Assembly (NCBI GenBank): GCA_029288775.1
Contig: JARIGQ010000009.1
Coordinates: 1 to 37,361, forward strand
DNA length: 37,361 nucleotides
Source of the DNA: Candidatus Nomurabacteria bacterium
Lineage (GTDB): Bacteria; Patescibacteriota; Minisyncoccia; Phycocordibacterales; UBA5272
Direction: 5' to 3'
Part shown: positions 24,058-34,072 of the stretch, one piece after another
Layout of the letters: each line of letters begins with the position of its first letter
How positions within the stretch are numbered: the stretch's first letter is position 1
Position numbers and translations under genes: made by a program
The notes under the pieces: generated by a model
The model's database searches: none
The model's input: only the letters and a program-made list of their open reading frames with translations
Told to the model about the DNA's origin: nothing

Positions 24058-24324
24058 ATGAGCAACAAAGGCCAGCTCCTGCAGGACCCGTTCCTGAACA
24101 CGCTCCGTCGTGAGCATGTGCCCGTCTCCATTTACCTGGTCAACGGCATCAAGCTGCAGGGGCAGATCGAGAGCTTCGACCAGTACGTGGTGCTGCTCAA
24201 GAACACGGTGACGCAGATGGTGTACAAGCACGCCATCTCGACCATCGTGCCGGGTCGGGCTGTGAACTTCACCGCAGTGGTGGAGGGTTCGGAGAAAGGC
24301 AGAGCTACTGAACTCCATTCTTAA
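24058..24324 (+). CDS. hfq: RNA chaperone Hfq
   Basis: 88 aa; [71 protein letters not shown] contains Sm1 and Sm2 ([10 protein letters not shown]) of proteobacterial-type Hfq. Confidence 0.98.
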
Positions 24325-33650: not shown

Positions 33651-33757
33651 AAAAGACATTGCAAGGATTTTTAAAAGACCACTATTTTAAAAGACGTTTC
33701 GGAGCTCTATTAAGTAAAAGACAGTTATCCACAGGTAGGTGCTTGCATATAAAAGAC
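33651..33757 (+). repeat. Cluster of five AAAAGAC heptamers upstream of the ncRNA candidate
   Basis: AAAAGAC at 33651, 33673, 33689, 33716, 33751 (a sixth at 34052); copies 2 and 3 share 11 bp (TTTTAAAAGAC). Confidence 0.7.
33725..33733 (+). promoter_or_regulatory. Perfect consensus DnaA box
   Basis: TTATCCACA. Confidence 0.45.
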
Positions 33758-33770
33758 ACTGCGCTATTAT
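33743..33770 (+). promoter_or_regulatory. Sigma70-type promoter for ncRNA candidate
   Basis: TTGCAT - 16 nt - TATTAT. Confidence 0.65.
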
Positions 33771-33776
33771 TAAGGA

Positions 33777-34046
33777 CAGGGTAGATGACGTAGCGATTAC
33801 GCGCTCCCATGCGAAGTTGGGTACAACAAGTCGCATAGCTCTACCACGAAGGTTAGTTCTTTCTCATAGCAGCCCCTAATCATCACTCGATGAGCTGCAC
33901 AAAATAGCAAAAAGCAACCCTAAAAAGCTCAATTTTATTAGCTATCTGGTTTTTGAAACTCCATGTAGCCTAAAACATTCTCTCTAAATCCCCTGCCTTG
34001 TGTGCACGAACCCCCTTTCGCGCCTACAATGCAGGGGATTTTTTAT
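33777..34046 (+). ncRNA. Candidate structured non-coding RNA (~270 nt), family not recognised
   Basis: Promoter just upstream; GGTAGA(33780-33785)/TCTACC(33840-33845) closing stem over GCG-ATTA-CGC and ATGCGA-A-GTTG-GGTA-CAAC-AAG-TCGCAT hairpins; GCAGC...TCATC-ACTC-GATGA-GCTGC hairpin; ends in a GC-rich hairpin plus T-tract; no convincing ORF. Confidence 0.55.
33986..34046 (+). terminator. Long-loop intrinsic terminator of the ncRNA candidate
   Basis: AATCCCCTGC ... GCAGGGGATT then TTTTATTTTA; stem may extend via TTGT/ACAA. Confidence 0.7.
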
Positions 34047-34072
34047 TTTATAAAAGACAAACCAATGAAAAA

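Follow-up and report, generated by a model that had tools for sequence, protein, structure and literature searches.

A probable new structured RNA gene of Nomurabacteria-type Paceibacterota, with a DnaA-box promoter and a covarying pseudoknot

Introduction

The described systems closest to the RNA gene reported here are 6S RNA (RF00013), tmRNA (RF00023), RNase P RNA (RF00010) and the Hfq-dependent small RNAs. Signal recognition particle (SRP) RNA is near universal and has as its hallmark a helix 8 closed by a GGAA loop, and pseudoknots are common in riboswitches. The consensus of the DnaA box is likewise known, and it is by this consensus that we call TTATCCACA a DnaA box. Our literature searches returned no work on the present RNA or on any structured non-coding RNA from Patescibacteria.

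We analysed a stretch of 37,361 nucleotides (the window) from a Candidatus Nomurabacteria contig, JARIGQ010000009.1. A preliminary description of this DNA had proposed a novel structured ncRNA between rsmE and a gene encoding a 296-aa protein. Our analysis supports this proposal through the lack of a match to Rfam families, kept synteny, strong covariation and the presence of a dedicated promoter and terminator, and the region 33743-34050 almost certainly encodes a real new ncRNA. That the RNA family is new is well supported by every comparison made in this analysis; the kind to which it belongs, the stand-alone structured bacterial RNA, is already known.

Results

The locus and known RNA families

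Rfam 15 at gathering thresholds, a scan that the preliminary description had proposed, gave no match in the window, nor in four loci from relatives, and a permissive scan of the RNA region returned sub-threshold matches only. The preliminary description had also seen no signatures of tmRNA, RNase P RNA or SRP RNA, and this view held. ARAGORN identified no tRNA or tmRNA at the locus, and both tmRNA and RNase P RNA were rejected as identities for the new RNA, since separate genes for them lie elsewhere in the genome (G000:C11:104418-104805 and G000:C5:90998-91276, respectively).

A highly diverged SRP RNA would be in keeping with the lack of hits to the small-type SRP RNA model (RF00169), for which 21 genomes of the order were searched, but this model misses some control genomes too, which makes the absence weak evidence; the large-type model (RF01854) was covered by the all-Rfam scan of the window, with no match. 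Because no GGAA-loop helix 8 was seen in the sequence and the new RNA is confined to one family of organisms, this identity is barely credible. The Rfam 6S model likewise matched neither this genome nor its relatives, the search covering 22 genomes of the order. Either 6S and small-type SRP RNA were lost from the genomes searched or they are too diverged for the models.

Gene boundaries and neighbours

The gene is delimited by the following elements.

33725-33733, + strand: DnaA box TTATCCACA, 5' of the -35 element and the sole perfect copy in the window
33743-33770, + strand: sigma70-type promoter TTGCAT-N16-TATTAT, with -35 at 33743-33748 and -10 at 33765-33770, kept in relatives
33777-34046, + strand: inferred RNA of ~270 nt, based on the positions of promoter and terminator
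33987-34051, + strand: P5, terminator hairpin followed by a T-run, 92.4% paired

The promoter and the strong terminator (AATCCCCTGC..GCAGGGGATT plus T-run) had both been named in the preliminary description; we located both in place, the promoter being conserved among relatives and the terminator hairpin covarying in them, with two-sided changes at 11 of 21 pairs. Judging from these elements, the RNA would start at about 33776-33780 and end within the T-run. No ORF was found to be conserved among the RNA copies, which bears out the earlier view that the locus contains no believable CDS. The motif TAAARGACA occurs three times in the window, at 33715, 33750 and 34051 (+ strand), each time at the RNA locus, and it also clusters there in several relatives.

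The RNA gene lies between rsmE, which is directed away from it, and the convergent 296-aa gene, with the terminator in between; clpP is more than 1 kb away, again with the terminator intervening. This arrangement bears on whether the element could act in cis, as a leader, riboswitch or 3' UTR of a neighbouring gene. The pseudoknot described below would suit a riboswitch, but the convergent orientation of the next gene downstream and the terminator before it argue that the RNA is not a leader, and in relatives the downstream neighbours vary and a trigger factor gene replaces rsmE in one genome (G018). We therefore consider a cis-acting element very unlikely.

Covariation among related copies

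The preliminary description had suggested examining related loci for covariation, which proved strong across 18 copies. In a model-fitted alignment of these copies (17 distinct), 95.1% of pair cells held standard pairs and two-sided changes occurred at 21 of 23 pairs, and because the alignment was fitted to helices P1, P2, S2 and P3, the counts lean towards these. None of 500 shuffles reached the observed value on any of five measures, and sliding the 3' partners, as a control, lowered pairing to about 45% or less. The 17 copies from the genus alone gave similar counts of pairing and covariation. A full-length MAFFT alignment misaligned the helices and was excluded from the counts, whereas the counts for P4 and P5 come from plain MAFFT alignments restricted to the respective hairpin. 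The RNA is thus established by covariation and not by folding energy: the single-sequence fold gave z = -4.5 with the terminator but z = -1.7 without it, which is weak evidence alone. The conservation of the RNA shows that its shape matters.

The 5' domain contains a pseudoknot

The 5' domain is composed of two nested helices around an H-type pseudoknot.

33780-33785 with 33840-33845 (span 33780-33845), + strand: P1, closing helix GGTAGA/TCTACC, two-sided changes at every pair
33793-33797 with 33830-33834 (span 33793-33834), + strand: P2, helix GCGAT/GTCGC, 95.8% of cells paired
33799-33821, + strand: H-type pseudoknot formed by S1 and S2, enclosed by P2
33799-33802 with 33811-33814, + strand: S1, ACGC/GCGA, 3 of 4 pairs forming in the window copy
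33806-33809 with 33818-33821, + strand: S2, CCCA/TGGG, 100% paired

The closing stem P1 had already been recognised in the preliminary description, and it covaries in relatives (two-sided changes at 6/7 pairs in the 17-copy genus alignment); P2 shows such changes at all three counted pairs of the 18-copy alignment. The two inner hairpins that had been drawn inside P1, GCG-ATTA-CGC and ATGCGA..TCGCAT, can both be drawn in the window copy, but the second of them finds no support in relatives. The ATGCGA/TCGCAT hairpin was rejected, as 66.7% of its cells are paired, the same as in shuffles. As read from the aligned sequences, the bases of the two proposed hairpins form P2 and the H-type pseudoknot instead.

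Across copies, the supported pseudoknot architecture is S1 ACGC/GCGT with S2 CCCG/CGGG. S1 pairs in 95-95.6% of cells though it was never part of the alignment model, and it shows five two-sided cells on the genus alignment compared with a shuffled mean of 0.8. The changes in S1 fall in separate branches of the rsmE tree, namely the G005/G008 pair, the G009/G004 pair and G019. Since loop 3 of the pseudoknot spans very few nucleotides, a single one in some copies, S1 may comprise only 3 bp or may alternate with S2.

The joint and the 3' hairpins

Three further conserved elements lie between P1 and the terminator.

33856-33863, + strand: single-stranded joint GUUCUUUC between P1 and P3, conserved in alignments
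33869-33898, + strand: P3, hairpin GCAGC/GCTGC with inner TCATC/GATGA, 97.6% paired
33940-33970, + strand: P4, hairpin with a conserved CATGTAG internal loop, 84.4% paired, 15 two-sided cells

The GCAGC..GCTGC hairpin of the preliminary description is P3, with its outer arms at 33869-33873/33894-33898; it covaries in relatives, all five counted pairs having two-sided changes in the 18-copy alignment. The earlier fold missed P4, although this hairpin is conserved. The joint GUUCUUUC is pyrimidine-rich; like the internal loop of P4, it is a well-conserved unpaired part of the RNA, and the two are the best candidates for contact.

Distribution in relatives

With loci located via rsmE, the RNA was found upstream of this gene in all 16 genus genomes examined; most loci of sufficient length have clpP on the far side of the RNA. 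One genome, G014, contains two copies 529 bp apart, which brings the genus to 17 copies. In this tandem pair (G014:C9:58641-59305, L040) the first part is identical and P4 and P5 differ; P4 carries a compensatory change, AGCT/AGCT versus ATCT/AGAT. A nucleotide search of 99 genomes identified the RNA in 11 more members of the genus, and the one hit elsewhere was trivial, covering 26 bases of the terminator tail. Matches in public records are metagenome assemblies labelled Candidatus Nomurabacteria, Paceibacterota, Patescibacteria and, in one case, Gracilibacteria.

An order-wide search under strict filters with R1, a covariance model built on the 5' domain, covered 397 genomes from 179 genera and identified no genus besides the window's own; the sensitivity of R1 outside the genus is limited, as it missed G019, which was part of that sample. 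The refined model R2 gave a weak match of 24.4 bits in G019, which belongs to another genus of the same family. This copy lies precisely upstream of rsmE, in a locus that continues with HU and clpP, and has the same DnaA box, P1 as GGTGAG/CTCACC, P3 as GGAAC/GTTCC and the pseudoknot AAGC-ACA-CCCG-GCTT-A-CGGG. Model R3 includes the G019 copy, so that its 54.6 bits for G019 are by construction; it identified a further copy in G018 (29.1 bits), beside the trigger factor gene and near a contig end, with P1 GGTGA/TCACC, pseudoknot AAGC..CCCG-GCTT-A-CGGG and P3 GCAAC/GTTGC. The two diverged copies thus keep the DnaA box, P1, the pseudoknot and P3. The G019 copy (L108 about 2350-2815; G019:C6:3850-4315) appears longer, with more than 400 nt to the next terminator-like hairpin, and has an extra GTCCAGC...GCTGGAC hairpin in common with G018.

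The known copies are few, 17 in the genus and two outside it. R3 gave no match in g2, g3 or G020, and in the genome of genus g2 rsmE abuts clpP with no RNA between them. Weak extra matches, such as those in G010:C20 and G004:C4, were out of place and were taken as chance.

The DnaA box at the promoter

All 18 genomes with the RNA have a perfect TTATCCACA at a fixed place upstream of the promoter, as in a DnaA-regulated gene; the box usually ends nine bases before TTGC, and this N9 spacing to the -35 element applies in most of the 18. From the 9-base motif, these sites would be bound by DnaA. The same TTATCCACA-N9-TTG arrangement occurs at lexA-like promoters, with an SOS-like GAAC-N4-GTTC, in G004, G006 and G007 (L075, L076 and L077), and upstream of an mraZ-like gene in G024, elsewhere in the order, both gene names coming from reading of the ORFs and not from a family search. 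These occurrences are consistent with a promoter-linked element, and the lexA-like genes suggest a putative DnaA-box promoter class in the genus. In L074 (G001:C3, near 1646-1870), a TTATCCACA-N9-TTGACA promoter precedes an ORF of 39 aa, possibly a small gene of this class.

A perfect DnaA box in all copies could also be expected if the DNA itself were conserved, as a replication origin or a DnaA-titrating site. Most copies have one box only, however, and it is sited at the promoter; the window has no GC-skew turn, and in G011 the turn is ~30 kb away in the readable part of the contig, so that skew places no origin at the locus. That helices well downstream of the box carry compensatory changes indicates an RNA, and we regard a DNA element as a poor explanation of the locus.

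Hfq is confined to a few genomes

An 88-aa hfq gene is present in the window (24058-24324, + strand), and on this basis the RNA had been put forward as a candidate Hfq client. This gene and the U-rich terminator tail would both fit an Hfq-dependent antisense sRNA. The hfq gene was indeed confirmed, but just 3 of the 16 genus genomes have it and a search of 25 other relatives found none, whereas the RNA is present in 16 of 16. The RNA is thus not in general an Hfq client, and Hfq dependence is refuted as a general mechanism and highly improbable as an account of the gene; Hfq could be an acquired partner in the three genomes. The Hfq of the window is proteobacterial in type, its best matches in the PDB and in a plasmid collection being proteobacterial Hfq with up to about 85% identity, and the gene looks like a horizontal gain into Patescibacteria.

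Discussion

The covarying helices, the lack of a conserved ORF and the dedicated promoter and terminator identify this locus as a gene for a stand-alone structured ncRNA. We propose that its sigma70-type promoter, beside the DnaA box, would drive synthesis of an RNA ended after ~270 nt by the intrinsic terminator, and that this RNA would fold into a 5' domain (P1-P2 around the H-type pseudoknot), the pyrimidine-rich joint, P3, P4 and the terminator hairpin. Because the RNA has a promoter and a terminator to itself, is followed by a convergent gene and has different neighbours in relatives, it would act in trans, the likeliest form being a regulatory RNA or a ribonucleoprotein. It may bind a partner, whose identity is a guess, via the joint GUUCUUUC, the conserved internal loop of P4 or both, and DnaA would tie synthesis of the RNA to replication. 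On the sequence evidence, a trans-acting RNA with DnaA-linked expression is the reading we hold to be fairly probable; base-pairing through GUUCUUUC in particular appears possible but doubtful.

Wider roles can be considered. A functional analogue of 6S RNA would bind RNA polymerase and regulate transcription globally. The lack of an Rfam 6S match in 22 genomes of the order means that this role may be vacant, and the new RNA is stand-alone, structured and a single gene in nearly all genomes. The absence of 6S is weak evidence, however, as its model found a match in only 5 of 14 control genomes, and the new RNA, with its multi-hairpin pseudoknot fold, has no long bulged duplex that would mimic an open promoter. 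We consider such an analogue quite unlikely. Unlikely too, though slightly less so, is a reading in which the RNA is a global regulator tied to the cell cycle of these ultra-small Paceibacterota. DnaA would then control its synthesis, alongside the lexA promoters with the same box, and the RNA would do what 6S and Hfq do elsewhere, in bacteria in which no 6S RNA is detected and most of which lack Hfq.

With its covarying pseudoknot and DnaA-box promoter, the new RNA family offers a concrete entry point into regulation in these uncultured bacteria. It also indicates that organisms with genomes of ~0.5-1.2 Mb keep lineage-specific structured RNAs despite genome reduction.

In comparison with known systems, the new RNA is of a size comparable to RNase P RNA, which is a separate gene in the same genome. 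It shares an H-type pseudoknot and a comparable size with tmRNA but is without a tRNA-like end. Like Hfq-dependent sRNAs, it is intergenic and has its own promoter, an intrinsic terminator and a single-stranded pyrimidine-rich stretch; unlike them, it is larger and more structured, and 13 of the 16 genus genomes with the RNA have no Hfq. With 6S RNA it has in common a stand-alone, usually single-gene, structured nature and possibly a global role, but it has no Rfam match and no long bulged hairpin, and is instead distinguished by its pseudoknot and promoter-linked DnaA box.
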